A stretch of DNA of 64,000 bases from positions 1 to 64,000 of the forward strand of contig DATLIY010000011.1 of the NCBI GenBank assembly GCA_035539175.1, in the 5' to 3' direction. How positions within the stretch are numbered: the first letter of the stretch is position 1; every line of letters starts with the position of its first letter. Made by a program: the position numbers and the translations under genes. A model generated the notes under the pieces. It was not told the origin of the DNA, ran no database searches, and saw only the letters and a list, made by a program, of their open reading frames with translations. This DNA is from Acidisarcina sp. GTDB taxonomy: Bacteria > Acidobacteriota > Terriglobia > Terriglobales > Acidobacteriaceae. Of this stretch, positions 19,321-64,000 are shown one piece after another.

Positions 19321-19464
19321 TGGCTGCTGGATCCTTCGCTTCGTCCGTCTCGAGATCCTTCGCTTCGCTCAGGATGACAAGAGGTTTTTCAGGATGACAA
19401 GTGAGTTCAGGATGGCAACCCCAGACTTGTCATCCTGAGCGAAGCGAAGGATCTGAAGCCTCGT
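19321..19464. repeat. Dispersed-repeat cluster with perfect 29-bp inverted pair
   Basis: The arm at 19353-19381 is the exact reverse complement of the arm at 19436-19464, with 54 bases between. Extra partial copies of the core caggatgacaag lie inside, and a truncated copy (atccttcgcttcg) starts near 19331. The cluster sits between the convergent ends of the thioredoxin-fold and beta-glucosidase genes. The same repeat family recurs across the window. Confidence 0.93.
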
Positions 19465-26793: not shown

Positions 26794-29259
26794 TTGACAC
26801 GAGAGCAACTCCAGGCAACACGCGCTGAACGCTGGCGACAAAACGGCGAGGCTCTCCTTACGCTCGAGGCCGCACGGGAATGGCTGCAGGAGACGGGCAT
26901 CTGCCTGTTTCTGCCGCGGAAGATGCAATTGCCGGCTCCGGCACCCTCCTTTGTGGAGGCATGCCTTGGCACGCCGAACGCCACTCCCCCGCGGGAGGCG
27001 ATTGAGGCGGCTACGGAACTGCTGGCCCGGCTGATAGACGCAGGCGACGTAATTGCTCTGAACCTGCTGGGTATGGTGGGGGAGCAGCCCGACTTCCTGG
27101 TAACACCGGAGTTTTTGCCCTACGTCTTCGCCTTGCGCGGCGACAGGGACTGGAAGCACGATCCGGCAACCACGGGCACGGGGCGGGTTTCTCCGCTGGT
27201 GCTGGAGGTGTGGAAGACGATTGAGCGCACCGGCGTCCAGACGGCGATCGAGATTCGCGAGGCACTGGGCAAGGAGCTGACAGAGGCAGCCGTGCTGCGC
27301 GCCCTGAATGAGTTGTGGAGCGGAATGCGCGTGATCCTGCTGCCCGGCGCGAGCGGCGAACCTGCCACCTGGGAGGCTTTGAAGACGCGCCACCAAAAGG
27401 CATTGGCGGGCGGCACGGCTACTTCGCTGGTCACCGCTCTCTCGGTGCTGCTGGCGCGCTATTTGCAGTCGTCGGTGGCGGCCACCAGCGAGGAGGCGGA
27501 GGTCTTTTTGTCGCCGCTGGCCTCACGCAGCAAGGTCCGCGAGGTGATCCGCGGCCTGAGCGCGACGCGGCAACTGGCGACGTACTCGCTCGATGCACAG
27601 CCACTGCTCTATGTGGAAGGGACTCTGCCGGAGTTTGAGGAGCCGGTAGCGGCTGAGGAGCCTGCGCCGCAGCCTGCGGTGGAAGGTGCGGCTTCGGGTG
27701 AGGCAGGATCGAGAATCCGGATCTATACCCGGCGCCCGGTCACAGGACCCGATCCGCTGCGCTGGAAGCGGGATTCGAGTGTGCCTCCGCCGCCAGGGGC
27801 GCGACGTTCTTCCATGGGCGACACGGCCCGGGAGGAATCTCGCGGCAGCAGGCCGGAGGGGGAGAAATTCGCGGCTCGGCGTGGGCCGGGATCTGGACCA
27901 GGATCGGGACGTGGACCTGGACGTGCGCCGGGCGGTATGCCGCGTCGGGAAGGCGCAGGAGCGCCACGGCGCGCGGGTGCAGAGGGAGAGCGGAAGCAGT
28001 GGACGCCGCGTGAGGGAGGCTTCTCCAGGCCAGCAGGAAGGCCAGCAGGCAAGTTCGCTCCGCGGCAGCAAGAGGGTGGGGCTCCGGCGGAAGGCCGTCG
28101 TCCGTCCTTCGGTGCAAGACCCGGTAGTAGTAGATTCAGCGGTGCAAGGCCCAGCAGTGCAAGACCATCGTTTGGCGGTGCAAGACCTGGTAGTGCAAGA
28201 CCCGGTAATGCAAGACCTGGTAGTGCAAGACCCGGTAATGCAAGACCTGGCGGTGCAAGACCATCGTTTGGTGCTGCAAGACCTGGTAGTGCGCGACCAT
28301 CGTTTGGCTCGCGGCCACCCGCAGCTGGCGGTTTCGGCGCAAGACCCTCGGGACCGCGCGCGACGGGCAGGCCAGGAGGTTCTCCGGGAGGACGTACCTT
28401 TAGCAAGAGCGCGGAGCCGGGAGAGAAGAGGCGCTTCGCTCCGGCGGGCCGTGGTCCGGGTATGGATCGCCCAGGCGGTCGTCCCAGCAGTCGCCCGGGC
28501 GGTCGCCCCAGTTTTGGGAGCGCCGGTCGTCCGGCAGGGGATCGTCCCAGCTATCCGAAGAGTGCAGGCGGCAAGTTTGGACCTCGCCGCACGCCGGGCG
28601 CCGTCGCAGGTGAAGGAGCAGGAAGCGCGAAGAAGGGCCGCTGGGTTCCTCGCACCGGCGCTGGAGATGGGCGCGAGGAGCGTCCAGCGCGGCGTGAAGG
28701 GGGATTTGCGGGAGCCTCGGGCAGGGGACCGTCGCGGAGTGGCGGTCCGAAGACATCCTTTGGCTCGCGCGGCTCGCGTCCTCCGGCTGGCGGAACAAGA
28801 CCCGGAACAAGGTTCGGCGCCAAGCCCGGGGCAAGGCCGGGAACAGGGCCCAGCCGTGGCGCAGGAGCATCGCGTCCGTACGCCAAGCCGGGTGGGGGCA
28901 AGTTTGCTCCACGGCGCGAGGGCGGCGGTGCGGCACGGCCTTCTTACACAAAGCCATGGGCAGAGGGCAGGGAGCGTCCGGCACGGCCAAGGAGCTTTGG
29001 AACGGGACCTGAAAGCGGCGGATCGAGACCGGAAGGCGGCTTCGAGCGTAGGCGCCCGGCTGGCGGGGAGGGTGAGCGTCGGCCACGGACCTTTGGAGCG
29101 CGGCCACCAGCCGGGAAGTCCGGCGGCAAGGCTGGCTTTAAACCAAGGCCGGGCGGCAGAACTCCAGGTGGTAAGACTGCGGGAGGAAGGCCCGGAGGAT
29201 TTGGCACGAAGAAGCGCGGTCCCGGAGATTATCCCCCAAGGAAGAAGCGAACTGAATGA
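26794..29259 (+). CDS. Large protein with N-terminal winged-helix-like region and long Arg/Gly/Pro-rich tail
   Basis: The start is uncertain: a TTG at 26794 gives MTREQLQATRAERWRQNGE; the frame is open further upstream into mutL. The first ~300 residues are ordered and include FLVTPEFLPYVFALRGDRDW and LRALNELWSGMRVILL, which look like winged-helix elements of a DNA-binding protein, but I cannot name the family. From about residue 320 to the end (about 500 residues) the protein is low complexity with repeated GSARPG, GGRP and SFG units and many Arg, so it is probably disordered and nucleic-acid binding. It ends with an ATGA overlap with cmk, so the two are translationally coupled. Confidence 0.75.
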   Translation: MTREQLQATRAERWRQNGEALLTLEAAREWLQETGICLFLPRKMQLPAPAPSFVEACLGTPNATPPREAIEAATELLARLIDAGDVIALNLLGMVGEQPDFLVTPEFLPYVFALRGDRDWKHDPATTGTGRVSPLVLEVWKTIERTGVQTAIEIREALGKELTEAAVLRALNELWSGMRVILLPGASGEPATWEALKTRHQKALAGGTATSLVTALSVLLARYLQSSVAATSEEAEVFLSPLASRSKVREVIRGLSATRQLATYSLDAQPLLYVEGTLPEFEEPVAAEEPAPQPAVEGAASGEAGSRIRIYTRRPVTGPDPLRWKRDSSVPPPPGARRSSMGDTAREESRGSRPEGEKFAARRGPGSGPGSGRGPGRAPGGMPRREGAGAPRRAGAEGERKQWTPREGGFSRPAGRPAGKFAPRQQEGGAPAEGRRPSFGARPGSSRFSGARPSSARPSFGGARPGSARPGNARPGSARPGNARPGGARPSFGAARPGSARPSFGSRPPAAGGFGARPSGPRATGRPGGSPGGRTFSKSAEPGEKRRFAPAGRGPGMDRPGGRPSSRPGGRPSFGSAGRPAGDRPSYPKSAGGKFGPRRTPGAVAGEGAGSAKKGRWVPRTGAGDGREERPARREGGFAGASGRGPSRSGGPKTSFGSRGSRPPAGGTRPGTRFGAKPGARPGTGPSRGAGASRPYAKPGGGKFAPRREGGGAARPSYTKPWAEGRERPARPRSFGTGPESGGSRPEGGFERRRPAGGEGERRPRTFGARPPAGKSGGKAGFKPRPGGRTPGGKTAGGRPGGFGTKKRGPGDYPPRKKRTE
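28111..28306 (+). repeat. 15-bp coding tandem repeat (GSARP/GNARP units)
   Basis: Units of the type ggtagtgcaagaccc follow each other with small changes and encode Gly-Ser/Asn-Ala-Arg-Pro. Three frames and the reverse strand stay open across it, which creates spurious long reading frames. Confidence 0.9.
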
Positions 29260-33583: not shown

Positions 33584-34429
33584 TCAAACCACCTGTTTCT
33601 TATTACGTTCCAGCAAGCGTGCTAGTTCCGCACGTCCGCGGCTGATGCGTGATTTCACTGTGCCTTCCGGAATATGAAGTACCTGGGCAATTTCCTTATA
33701 GTCAAGGTCCTGAAGGTCGCGCAGAATGACGGCCTCCCGCAGCTCCGGGGAGATCTGGGTTAACGCCTGTTGCACCATTTTCTGCAGCTCCTGCGCGGCT
33801 GCATTTTCGTGTGGGCTTGGACGTGAGTCGGTGAGCCGCTCGGCGACGTGCGTCTGCTCGGGGTCGTCCCAGCCGGCGTCAATGGAATCGGTGGCCCGCT
33901 GCTGGCGGCTGCGCCGGAAGTGATCGACGAGAAGATTGCGGGTGAGGGTGGCGATCCAGACCTGGAAGCTGCCGCGGGTACCGTCAAAAGTGTGGAGATT
34001 GGCGTAGATCTTGAGAAATACGTCCTGGGTCAGGTCTTCGGAGTCCTGGGGGCAGCCGGTGAATCGATAGCAAAGGCTGTAGACGCGGCGATGATGTGCG
34101 CGGACCAGTTCGGTCCAGGCCATCGAGTCTCCACCGAGGCAACGCCCTACAACGACATTCCAATCTGGTTCCAAACGCCGTTCCTCGAATCTCTCGCCCG
34201 CATGCCGCTCTCCGACCGCGCTCCCCGCCGCTGTGATTGCTGACGTGGACAGTCGGCCTGGGTAAAGACTCTCCCGAAGGACGATCTGGCGGGAACCGCT
34301 GGCTTTGTCTGCGCGCCCGGATTCGTAGCCGGCGACAAACGGCTCGACGCGATTCAGAGCGGGGCGCTTCTGCGAGTGGGCGAGCACAGGGCCATTGGGT
34401 AACTGGATCCCAAATGCATTCCACGTCAT
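33584..34429 (-). CDS. ECF-type RNA polymerase sigma factor
   Basis: The recognisable sigma part has region 2 (MAWTELVRAHHRRVYSLCYRF, SEDLTQDVFLKIYANL, FQVWIATLTRNLLVDHFR) and region 4 with the helix-turn-helix ELREAVILRDLQDLDYKEIAQVL, HIPEGTVKSRISRG. Only the last ~190 residues are needed for an ECF sigma factor. The start is uncertain: ATG at 34429 gives 281 residues, ATG 34447 and GTG 34387 are alternatives, and none has a clear ribosome site. The frame stays open upstream through a repeat block, which inflates a naive gene call. It leads the minus-strand operon with its anti-sigma factor. Confidence 0.88.
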   Translation of the reverse strand: MTWNAFGIQLPNGPVLAHSQKRPALNRVEPFVAGYESGRADKASGSRQIVLRESLYPGRLSTSAITAAGSAVGERHAGERFEERRLEPDWNVVVGRCLGGDSMAWTELVRAHHRRVYSLCYRFTGCPQDSEDLTQDVFLKIYANLHTFDGTRGSFQVWIATLTRNLLVDHFRRSRQQRATDSIDAGWDDPEQTHVAERLTDSRPSPHENAAAQELQKMVQQALTQISPELREAVILRDLQDLDYKEIAQVLHIPEGTVKSRISRGRAELARLLERNKKQVV

Positions 34430-34621
34430 TGAGCCCGTCGTGCGCATACTGCCAGATACGGCAGAAATGTCTCCGCGGTTCCAGACAGAGAAGATTATGC
34501 AGCAAATTCCCAGGAGCGGCACTTCAGTAAAAGGATTAAGTTGATTTCGGGGGGAGCTTCGCTTCGCTCGGATGTGTGTGCGTAGGGGACGACTGTGGTG
34601 CCGTGGGACAAGGGTGGGGTG

Positions 34622-34923
34622 GTAAAGCAGGTCCTTCGCTTCGCTCAGGATGACAATAAAAAAGCGTACTCGCGGGATGACAAAGTGGAAGTGCTCAGGA
34701 TGACAACGCAAGGGGGCTCAGGGATGACAACGCAAGGGGGCTCAGGGATGACAACGCAGAGGTTCCGGATGACAGGGTTGGGGACTCAGTCCGCCCTGAT
34801 GAGTCTCGCCCGTACTTGTCATCCTAAGCACACTCTTTTTTGTCATCCTGAGCCCCTCTTCTTTTTCATCCTGAACCCCTCTTCTTTTTTGTCATCCTGA
34901 GCGAAGCGAAGGACCTGCTTTAC
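34622..34923. repeat. 302-bp palindromic repeat composite with perfect 35-bp inverted ends
   Basis: The arm 34622-34656 is the exact reverse complement of 34889-34923. Between them, forward units (gatgacaacgcaag, 24-bp period, three copies from 34699) occupy the left half and reverse units (tgtcatcctgag-type) the right half. No gene is present in 34430-35128 apart from these repeats. Confidence 0.93.
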
Positions 34924-35084
34924 TCCGCCGCGGTGCACCCCTTGCCAAGTCGGGCAATGAGCAACTCGTCGCGGCCAACCTGCTTTACGAGGAAAGAGCC
35001 ATCCCGGCAGGCAGGAAACGGGCCGGCATAGGCCAGCCCGTTTCAGCGGGGGAAACCAGAGTCGGAATGCGGCGCGAGGGCACA

Positions 35085-35115
35085 GCAGATCCTTCGCGGC
35101 GCTCCGGATGACAAG
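35085..35115 (+). repeat. Single copy of the dispersed repeat
   Basis: One diverged copy (gcagatccttcg ... ggatgacaag) lies just before the 3' end of the secreted Gly-rich gene. Confidence 0.85.
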
Positions 35116-35128
35116 CGTGCCATCGGCT

Positions 35129-35662
35129 TTATGAGTTGCTATTTACATCCTGCTCAGCCTGGTGCTTCGCCTTCTTCAATTCGGGTTTGACGTCCACGTT
35201 GGGTTTGAGATCCTTGATCGCACTGCCGAGGGAGACGGAGTTTGAGCCGGTAACCTTCGACTTGAGATCGGCGAACGGGATATCAAGGTTGTGCGAAACA
35301 TGAATGGCCGCGGCGCACTGGCCTACGTTCTTAAACCCGGAGCAGGCCTGCTGCGCGGTCGTTCCCTGTGGCAGCAACTTATCGAGATTGCTGGAGAGCT
35401 TCGTGTTGTTGGAAAGGATCTCCGACGGCGTACGGCCCATCTCCGTGCGTCCGGCGTTGGCTGAACCAGCCCGGCCAGTCCCGGCATCCATTCCTCCGCT
35501 CGCACTGGCACCCACGCCAGCTCCGCGTTCTCCGGAGGCGCCCATCCCTCCTCCGCCGCCCATCGACGCTCCGCCGCCACGCCCGTGCTGTGCCAGCGCG
35601 AAGGACGACAGTGCCAAAATAGCAATCATTAATCCTGGTTTTACAGCGAGTCCTGGTTTCAT
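35129..35662 (-). CDS. Secreted Gly-rich protein, function unknown
   Basis: The 177-residue product has a signal peptide (LMIAILALSSFALAQ), a Gly/Ala/Ser-rich segment (about residues 27-75) and a conserved-looking C-terminal half with ACSGFKNVGQCAAAIHVSHNLDIPF and DLKSKVTGSNSVSLGSAIKDLKP. I associate this C-terminal pattern with hypothetical proteins of Acidobacteria, but no function is known to me. Two cysteines (in ACSGFKNVGQC) may form a disulfide. The ATG follows AAGGAGGGG. Confidence 0.8.
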   Translation of the reverse strand: MKPGLAVKPGLMIAILALSSFALAQHGRGGGASMGGGGGMGASGERGAGVGASASGGMDAGTGRAGSANAGRTEMGRTPSEILSNNTKLSSNLDKLLPQGTTAQQACSGFKNVGQCAAAIHVSHNLDIPFADLKSKVTGSNSVSLGSAIKDLKPNVDVKPELKKAKHQAEQDVNSNS

Positions 35663-35784: not shown

Positions 35785-36429
35785 TCAGAGGATCAAATTC
35801 CGTAAGTCCCGGCTGGCGATCGAGTGGATTCCCTGGCTGGCGAAATCGCGCCGGGTGGCCTCGACCGAGCCGGGGAGGCCGATGGCACGGCAGGCGTCCT
35901 CGATGACAACGGCTTCAAATCCCGCGTGTCTGGCATCCAGAGCGGAAAAGCGAACACAGTAATCGTAGGCCAAACCGGCGAGAAAAACGCGCTCCAGGCC
36001 ATGCTCTGCAAGGTAGTGGGAGAGCCCGGTGTGCGTCTGCCGGTCGTTCTCCCGGAAGGCGGAATAGGAGTCGATGGCGCGGTGAAACCCCTTGCGCAGG
36101 ATCATCGCGGCAGAGGGCACCGCAAGCTTTGCGTGGAACTCCGCTCCGTAACTGCCCTGCACGCAATGATCTGGCCAGAGGATCTGCTCTCCATAGGGAG
36201 CCTGGATGGTCTGGTAGGCAGCCTTGCCGGGATGGCTGGAGGCAAAGGAGAGGTGACCTTCGGGGTGCCAGTCCTGGGTGACAACCGCGTGACGAAAGAG
36301 AGGCGCGATACGGTTGATGAGGTCGACAACCTCTTCTCCCCGGGGAACGGCAAGCGCGCCTCCCTCACAGAAGTCGTTCTGCACATCGACAATGAGCAGC
36401 ACATCGTTCTCTGTCAGAGTGATTGGCAT
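35785..36429 (-). CDS. pncA: Nicotinamidase (isochorismatase fold)
   Basis: PncA deamidates nicotinamide to nicotinate for NAD salvage. The 214-residue product has the catalytic triad D15 (LLIVDVQNDF), K113 (LRKGFHR) and C158 (LAYDYCVR), and metal ligands D53/H55 (QDWHPEGH) and H88 (WPDHCVQ). The length matches the family and the start ATG follows GGAAGA. It is monocistronic with no other NAD genes nearby. Confidence 0.95.
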   Translation of the reverse strand: MPITLTENDVLLIVDVQNDFCEGGALAVPRGEEVVDLINRIAPLFRHAVVTQDWHPEGHLSFASSHPGKAAYQTIQAPYGEQILWPDHCVQGSYGAEFHAKLAVPSAAMILRKGFHRAIDSYSAFRENDRQTHTGLSHYLAEHGLERVFLAGLAYDYCVRFSALDARHAGFEAVVIEDACRAIGLPGSVEATRRDFASQGIHSIASRDLRNLIL

Positions 36430-40038: not shown

Positions 40039-40068
40039 GCAGATCCTTCGCTGCGCTCAGGATGACAA
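40039..40068 (+). repeat. Single copy of the dispersed repeat upstream of the mutase gene
   Basis: A complete copy (gcagatccttcgctgcgctc followed by aggatgacaa) is flanked at 40011-40030 and 40083-40102 by a second, unrelated ~20-bp near-duplicate (ggcagatc.gagcc.ggagc). Confidence 0.9.
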
Positions 40069-52928: not shown

Positions 52929-53096
52929 AGCAGATCCTTCGCTTTGGGGATGAAGAAGCAGGTCCTTCGCTTCGCTCAGGATGACAAGTTTGGGTGCTCA
53001 GGATGACAAGTTTGTGTGGGGGATTAAGAAGCAGGTCAACAGGATGACAAGTTTGTGGCTCAGGATGACAAGTTTGGGTGTGCTCAGGATGACAGA
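52929..53096 (+). repeat. Dispersed-repeat array between scpB and scpA
   Basis: One compound copy (gcagatccttcgctttgggg followed by atgaagaagcaggtccttcg, 52929-52987) is followed by three degenerate caggatgacaag units. The compound copy matches the right end of the GIY-YIG element at 63793-63852 apart from a few bases. All units are in one orientation. Nothing else was seen in 52805-53116. Confidence 0.9.
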
Positions 53097-63133: not shown

Positions 63134-63420
63134 GCCTTGTCATCTTGAGCGCAGCGGCTCTGCTCCCCCACAGGCTTTGTCATCCTGAGCGCAGCAACTC
63201 TGTTCCCCACACTAGCCTTGTCATCTCCCACTAGCCTTGTCATCCTGAGCGAAGCGAAGGACCTGCTTCTTCATCTCCGGCCGCGTCCTCAGCAAAGCGC
63301 TCCGTGCTCCTCCCCACTGGCTTGTCCTAAGCGCAGCAACTCTGTCCCCCCACCAGCTCTGTCATCGCCCACGCCAGCCTTGTCATCCTGAGCGCAGCGA
63401 AGGACCTGCTTCTTCCCCTT
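63134..63420. repeat. Left repeat array flanking the GIY-YIG gene
   Basis: It contains seven full or partial tgtcatcctgag-type units, in reverse orientation. The segment 63232-63420 is an imperfect inverted copy of the right flank 63812-64000, including a perfect 43-bp arm (63237-63279) and a 20-bp perfect match at 63284-63303 with 63931-63950. No gene is seen in 63127-63470 besides these repeats. Confidence 0.92.
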
Positions 63421-63470
63421 GCCCACGAAAATCTTTGCGCCTCGCTCTTTGTCAGCCGTAAGCTCGCTTC

Positions 63471-63818
63471 ATGCATGGCGAGCGCGTTTATAGCACATAC
63501 ATTATGGCGAGCCGGAGCCGGACACTGTATATCGGCATGACTGGAAACCTGCGACAAAGAGTATTCGAGCATAAGCAAAAACGAGGGTCGGACTTCACTG
63601 CGAAGTATCGGTGCAGCCGCCTTGTCTGGTACGAAAACTTCCATTACGTCCGGAACTCCATCGCCATGGAAAAGAAATTGAAGGGGTGGCTGCGGGCAAG
63701 AAAGATTGCACTCATCGAAGAGGTGAATCCCTCGTGGGAGGATTTGAGCGAAGGATGGTACTCAGAAGAGCAGTTGAGGATTGATGAGGGGGAAGCAGAT
63801 CCTTCGCTGCGGAGATGA
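63471..63818 (+). CDS. GIY-YIG nuclease-domain protein in inverted repeats
   Basis: The 115-residue product begins MHGERVYSTYIMASRSRTLYIGMTGNLRQRVFEHKQ, the GIY-YIG superfamily start (a variant GIY at STYIM, YIG present), with the conserved Arg in NLRQRVFEHK, a Glu in EKKLKGWLRARK and the family's IALIEEVNPSWEDLSEGW. It is a stand-alone nuclease of the small YhbQ/UvrC-like type, expected to cut or nick DNA. It is flanked by long inverted repeats; its last codons (EADPSLRR) and its stop lie in the right repeat arm. No transposase or other recombinase is nearby. Confidence 0.85.
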   Translation: MHGERVYSTYIMASRSRTLYIGMTGNLRQRVFEHKQKRGSDFTAKYRCSRLVWYENFHYVRNSIAMEKKLKGWLRARKIALIEEVNPSWEDLSEGWYSEEQLRIDEGEADPSLRR

Positions 63819-64000
63819 AGAAGCAGGTCCTTCGCTTCGCTCAGGATGACAAAGCTGGCGTGGGGGATGACAAATGCGATGTGGAGACAGAGCTCCCGCG
63901 CTCAGGATGACAAGCCAGTGTGGCGAGCAGGGAGCGCTTTGCTGAGGACGAGGCGGGAGATGAAGAAGCGGGTCCTTCGCTGCGCTCAGGATGACAAGGC
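63793..64000. repeat. Right repeat array flanking the GIY-YIG gene, cut by the window end
   Basis: It begins inside the nuclease gene (gcagatccttcgctgcggag) and runs through forward units ctcaggatgaca and the perfect arm 63810-63852 to the window end. It is the inverted partner of 63232-63420. The outer end is not visible, so the full element length is unknown. Confidence 0.92.

Follow-up and report, generated by a model that had tools for sequence, protein, structure and literature searches.

An inverted pair of TGTC-tagged, REP-like repeat units with half-unit arrays as the probable basis of a 302-bp palindrome beside an ECF sigma factor gene of Acidisarcina sp.

The 302-bp palindrome at positions 34622-34923 of the window (the whole stretch of 64,000 nucleotides analysed, from the Acidisarcina sp. 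genome G000) is probably an inverted pair of members of a dispersed family of TGTC-tagged, REP-like hairpins. The two units face each other with their tags inward, and each is accompanied by an array of half-units that most likely grew by local tandem duplication. The bounds of the unit, its copy number, the stem covariation in the wider family, the one-sidedness of the half-units and the likeness of linkers within arrays are supported directly by the sequences compared.

The palindrome and its repeat unit

Over 43 nt the arms of the palindrome (34622-34664 and 34881-34923) show 95% complementarity, and their outer 35 nt pair perfectly, the latter as the preliminary description of this DNA had stated. 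Its observation that the internal units reverse orientation in the middle of the element also held. The left interior contains a 24-bp tandem repeat (34693-34758, 97% match) and the right interior a 23-bp tandem repeat in the opposite orientation (34819-34889). The 302 nt form a very stable fold on either strand, with energies of -165.6 kcal/mol (plus strand) and -171.9 kcal/mol (minus strand), z-scores of -13.8 and -16.7, respectively, and none of 100 shuffles folding equally well. This strong fold comes from the inverted pair and not from a single unit, which folds weakly, with four to five pairs, a 2-nt mismatch and then two more pairs. The arms in the window end in GGACC, which breaks the outermost stem pair.

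The 35-bp arms each consist of a dispersed 32-bp repeat in its consensus form, AAGCAGRTCCTTCGCTTCGCTCAGGATGACAA, and three further bases. The left full unit (34625-34656, plus strand, with bounds taken from the profile of 74 copies) has its tail outside and its TGTC tag towards the centre, and together with 34622-34624 makes up the left perfect arm. The right full unit (34889-34920, minus strand) forms the second arm with 34921-34923. Between them lie the left half-unit array, composed of tag plus one stem arm (34673-34774, plus strand, 24-bp period, linker CGCAAGGGGG), the centre of the palindrome, without strand (34775-34815), and the right half-unit array in opposite orientation (34816-34888, minus strand, 23-bp period). 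The repeat-bearing stretch is wider than 302 bp and includes a degenerate further unit at 35079-35114 (plus strand, 83% identical to the left arm) and a partial unit, CTTCGCTTCGCTC, at 34557-34569 (plus strand).

When up to one mismatch is allowed, the 3.92-Mb genome contains 74 copies of the core CTTCGCTCAGGATGACA (38 in forward and 36 in reverse orientation) and none of the reversed control. In the window, TTCGCTCAGGATGACA with up to three mismatches was found 22 times, against 0.56 expected and a maximum of three in 100 shuffles. The profile of all 74 genome copies drops to background beyond AAGCAGRTCCTTCGCTTCGCTCAGGATGACAA. Two units drawn at random from G000 agree at 31 or 32 of the 32 positions in 21% of draws, and a special terminal inverted repeat is therefore not required to account for identical arms. 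Other members of the family in the window are an inverted pair (19363-19444), a single unit (40051-40067), a polar array of one full and four half-units (52970-53094) and a dense cluster (63138-63996). A tandem array of AGTGCAAGACC... with a 15/30-bp period (28156-28308) is unrelated to the hairpin family.

On the other strand the unit reads TTGTC-ATCCT-GAGCGAAGCGA-AGGAT-C, a small stem-loop beside the TGTC tag. The tag (TGACA on the other strand) is present in 99-100% of the 74 copies, and the tail is C[TC]CTGC-like, with the consensus GCAGR on the other strand. For covariation, viral contigs were scanned with the pattern GTCAT-N3-GAGCGAAGCGA-N3-ATC, in which both stem triplets are free. Among the 98 distinct sites retrieved, the triplets were complementary in 89 and of eight types: TCT/AGA (35), CCT/AGG (24), TCC/GGA (11), CCC/GGG (7), GTT/AAC (7), GCT/AGC (3), TTC/GAA (1) and ACT/AGT (1). 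Complementarity across eight types indicates that the hairpin is constrained in the wider family. An earlier covariation pattern was discarded as uninformative: 76 of 82 sites were complementary, nearly all of one type, with a shuffle mean of 73 (80 of 111 loci).

One-sided arrays of half-units

A half-unit consists of CTCAGGATGACA without the other stem arm, and the spacing of half-units is often shorter than the length of a full unit. In G000 the full units lie mostly at the outer edge of an array, followed by half-units on the tag side, where 64 were counted versus three on the tail side (p 7e-16). The same polarity was found in other genomes, with 35 versus 3 half-units around 162 units in 117 genome_contigs loci, whose titles name Bacteroidales, Lachnospiraceae, Bacillota, Clostridia, Cyanobacteria, Desulfuromonadales, Gemmatimonadales and Acidobacteria. 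A second scan of viral contigs gave 14 versus 0, and 20 regions each of the genomes G044 and G067 gave 3 versus 0 and 2 versus 1. The polarity is weaker with a looser 260-nt window combined with a stricter motif (46 versus 12 in G000, 29 versus 11 elsewhere), and it is not significant for the TGC-stem type (10 versus 6). One viral contig, IMGVR_UViG_2808606664_000001 (loci L402, L435, L439 and L440), carries many AAC-stem units with half-units every ~20 bp.

The linkers of nine arrays are more similar within arrays (0.68) than between arrays (0.32), and 34 of 47 half-units have the same stem variant as the unit they accompany, with a shuffle mean of 13.3; a single viral contig accounts for 14 of the 47, and the count excluding it is 20 of 33. 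The shared stem variants thus point to a local duplication of half-units, and together with the likeness of linkers they suggest that half-units arise where they stand, by duplication of a partial unit with neighbouring DNA. Such a duplication would comprise the tag, one stem arm and ~10 nt of adjacent sequence, and may result from slippage during replication or from stuttering at the hairpin. Mismatches in half-units showed no steady rise with distance from the full unit, and seven lone tail-halves found near full units followed no clear pattern.

The two units of the palindrome could have been joined by separate arrival or by an inverted duplication; it may thus consist of two units that each have an array of their own, or stem from an old inverted duplication. 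The latter, in which one unit and its array were copied in inverted orientation, for example by template switching at the replication fork, and the halves drifted afterwards, is rather unlikely as an account of the whole palindrome. It would explain that the arms match beyond the 32-bp unit (43 nt at 95%) and that the interiors of the two halves pair imperfectly (73-84% over 32-41 nt). Linker similarity between the left and right halves (0.50) slightly exceeds that between different arrays (0.42), and therefore an independent growth of both arrays is not proven. Another inverted pair in G000 (L308, G000:C7:998572-998627) carries one private variant, CTTCACTTCGTTCAG, in both arms, as an inverted duplication would predict; this pair sits in ~2 kb of DNA whose G001 counterpart, in a genome of the same genus, measures 127 bp. 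Against an inverted duplication, the halves differ in spacing and in linker sequence, and the arms of seven inverted pairs show no clear excess of identity over random pairs (29.1 versus 27.0 of 32, permutation p 0.09).

Distribution and genomic context

The pattern is patchily distributed and present in 24 of 41 genomes, G000 included, of which 22 are among the 25 within the family and two among the 16 outside it. The same-genus genome G001 has no match with at most one mismatch, versus 74 in G000, but is not entirely without the family, since one unit or more was found there at two mismatches from the pattern. The exact 22-mer is present in many phyla, in at least 117 stretches. Among 29 genomes selected for holding it, which represent about ten phyla by record title, 21 contain ten copies or more and the reversed control is absent from all; these distribution counts are lower bounds. 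Single matches in archaeal, Patescibacteria and Dehalococcoidia MAGs may be contamination.

Units in G000 form 16 direct pairs and, within 300 bp, seven inverted pairs, of which six have their tags inward. In other sets of inverted pairs, outward tags prevail (5 versus 1, 8 versus 0 and 18 versus 1). By a rough ORF method, 51 clusters were placed 25 times between tandem genes, 19 times between convergent and twice between divergent genes, and five times inside an ORF. The window's own gaps are 28 tandem, seven convergent and seven divergent, and the excess of convergent over divergent positions of the clusters has a p value of 0.015.

A search of G000 for the Y1/RAYT transposase (PF01797) gave no match and was positive in five of 14 control genomes. 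Across the 41 genomes, 33 of which have PF01797 transposases, copy number correlates with Y1 count (rho 0.42, p 0.006). No correlation is seen among the 25 genomes within the family (rho 0.11, p 0.60), and G000 is copy-rich yet without Y1; a link between Y1 and copy number was rejected accordingly.

The preliminary description had offered either a MITE or two head-to-head copies. The second option fits, since the 35-bp arms are consensus family members with three further matching bases. A MITE, that is, a 302-bp non-autonomous transposon whose 35-bp terminal repeats are recognised by a transposase that moves it whole, is very improbable. Its perfect 35-bp inverted ends, its intergenic position inside a stretch absent from G001 and the fact that other G000 family arrays lie within a larger dispersed composite all suit such an element. 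However, the 302 bp have no second copy among the fetched G000 clusters, where the longest BLAST match is 125 bp at 74%; the arms belong to the ordinary members of the family, found also singly or as direct pairs; and a target duplication was looked for and none was seen. Unlike a MITE, the palindrome is not repeated whole with defined ends among these clusters. Perfect ends are thus no sure sign that a palindrome in such a genome is a transposon.

The larger composite, which holds a unit and its array, was observed in nine G000 clusters on contigs C3, C7 and C8 (L001, L006, L007, L012, L016, L017, L018, L021 and L022; a tenth match, L314, is marginal). These clusters share long flanks, with GCGTTATGAAGCAGATCC on one side and AACTAAATGAGG-like linkers on the other. 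Some outer ends resemble AGGGCCTGTTAACCCTA / TAGGGTTAACAGGCCCT; both ends are found in L012 (391 bp) and L022 (272 bp), neither of which has an obvious target duplication.

The palindrome lies between the ECF sigma factor gene and the 3' end of an ORF of 177 aa (35129-35662, minus strand), which faces it and has no match in Pfam or in G001. The conserved part of the sigma gene spans 33584-34132 (minus strand); its predicted start is ambiguous, the frame being open to 34711. The element is indeed upstream of the sigma gene, but the open frame that had been described as running through it (33584-34711, TTG start) covers just its left 90 of 302 bp (34622-34711), and the Pfam domain Sigma70_r2 starts at residue 202 (near 34108), which leaves ~514 bp between it and the element. 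Homology with G001 covers the sigma gene, ends at 34541, 81 bp short of the element, and resumes at 35841.

Comparison with G001, the sole genome of the same genus in the set, revealed neither a clean empty site nor a flanking target-site duplication. The 20 kb around three clusters (L332) have no G001 match. At 19368 and 40056 the intergenic regions of both genomes are of similar length, yet the DNA of G001 fails to align across the element. Intergenic lengths in the two genomes differ by more than 500 bp in four of six gaps with elements and in one of 16 other gaps (Fisher p 0.009); this comparison, tabulated by hand with contig-crossing gaps and one 18-bp gap excluded, is suggestive only. 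Copy number differs strongly between relatives and contexts vary, so that, by the contrast of size and context drawn in the preliminary description, mobile or recombinogenic DNA is the favoured reading of the element.

That the palindrome is a conserved RNA structure which regulates the ECF sigma operon is likewise very improbable: the very stable fold and the position upstream of the sigma gene would suit it, but G001 homology ends 81 bp short of the element, a clear unit is found upstream in just one of 29 orthologous sigma loci (L039, in a copy-rich genome; the two-mismatch 12-mer matches upstream in L033, L045 and L058 are about as many as the chance expectation of 0.11 per locus) and no Rfam family matched at its gathering score (top MIR1858, 33.3 bits versus 137). 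The effect on the sigma operon that had been considered is thus not supported. RNA co-transcribed with the gene at 35129-35662 would form a long hairpin, and any action would be that of a 3'-end structure.

Possible origin and comparison with known repeats

Returning to the pair of REP-like units, we infer how its arrays grow and how the unit spreads from the patterns described above. The unit would be spread in trans by an enzyme not recognised in this analysis. A bolder proposal, which we regard as doubtful, is that an active process guided by structure operates at the GTC tag in several phyla and has left the one-sided arrays as its footprint; it could, for example, nick the tag and fill short gaps repeatedly. 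If true, this process would be the machinery that spreads and maintains CGTC/TGTC-tagged REPs lacking a resident Y1 transposase. In any case, the directional footprint of the half-units is something that every enzyme or slippage model must account for. The polar signature and a same-genus pair of genomes with 74 versus 0 pattern matches offer a concrete handle on what spreads CGTC-type REPs.

The recurrent one-sided arrays are the part for which no description was found in the topic literature searched, that is, among the matches listed and in passages of key papers; the titles that matched unit strings, among those listed, are unrelated to bacterial repeats. A survey with RepRanger counted palindromic intergenic repeats in many phyla, including the acidobacterium Granulicella aggregans (PMC12306157); the core strings of the unit and the words 'tandem' and 'transposase' are absent from its main text. 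REPINs and GTAG REPs carry a GTAG tag and are associated with a Y1 (RAYT) transposase (PMC3116915, PMC2817692). Similar to these, the present units are short, dispersed and palindromic and often form inverted pairs; unlike them, they have a TGTC tag in a genome without a PF01797 match. The TIR/TIRYT elements of Acidobacteria also occur as dimers or clusters, yet they flank Y1-type transposase genes (PMC3733652), of which none was found in G000; this comparison is by description only.

The closest resemblance is to the CGTC REPs (Di Nocera, De Gregorio, Rocco 2013, PMC3733652), with which the unit was compared by description; the palindrome has the look and behaviour of a CGTC/TGTC-type REP pair, and the unit may belong to that superfamily. 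These repeats are reported in five phyla, Acidobacteria not among them. They carry at one end a CGTC tag, often TGTC or CCTC, with TGTC a frequent variant, followed by a stem of 8-9 bp that starts with AT, a loop of 4-5 nt and a short unpaired tail, mostly CCA, that is usual but not universal. Inverted (HH) dimers predominate, no dedicated transposase is known and the spreading agent was left open. In contrast, the stem described here has four to five continuous pairs plus two behind a mismatch, the tail is CTGC, and half-unit arrays accompany the units, none being found described in the passages of that paper compared. Like the CGTC REPs, the present unit has a TGTC tag and a stem that begins with AT, lies mostly in intergenic regions between tandem or convergent genes, forms inverted dimers and occurs in G000 without an associated PF01797 transposase.
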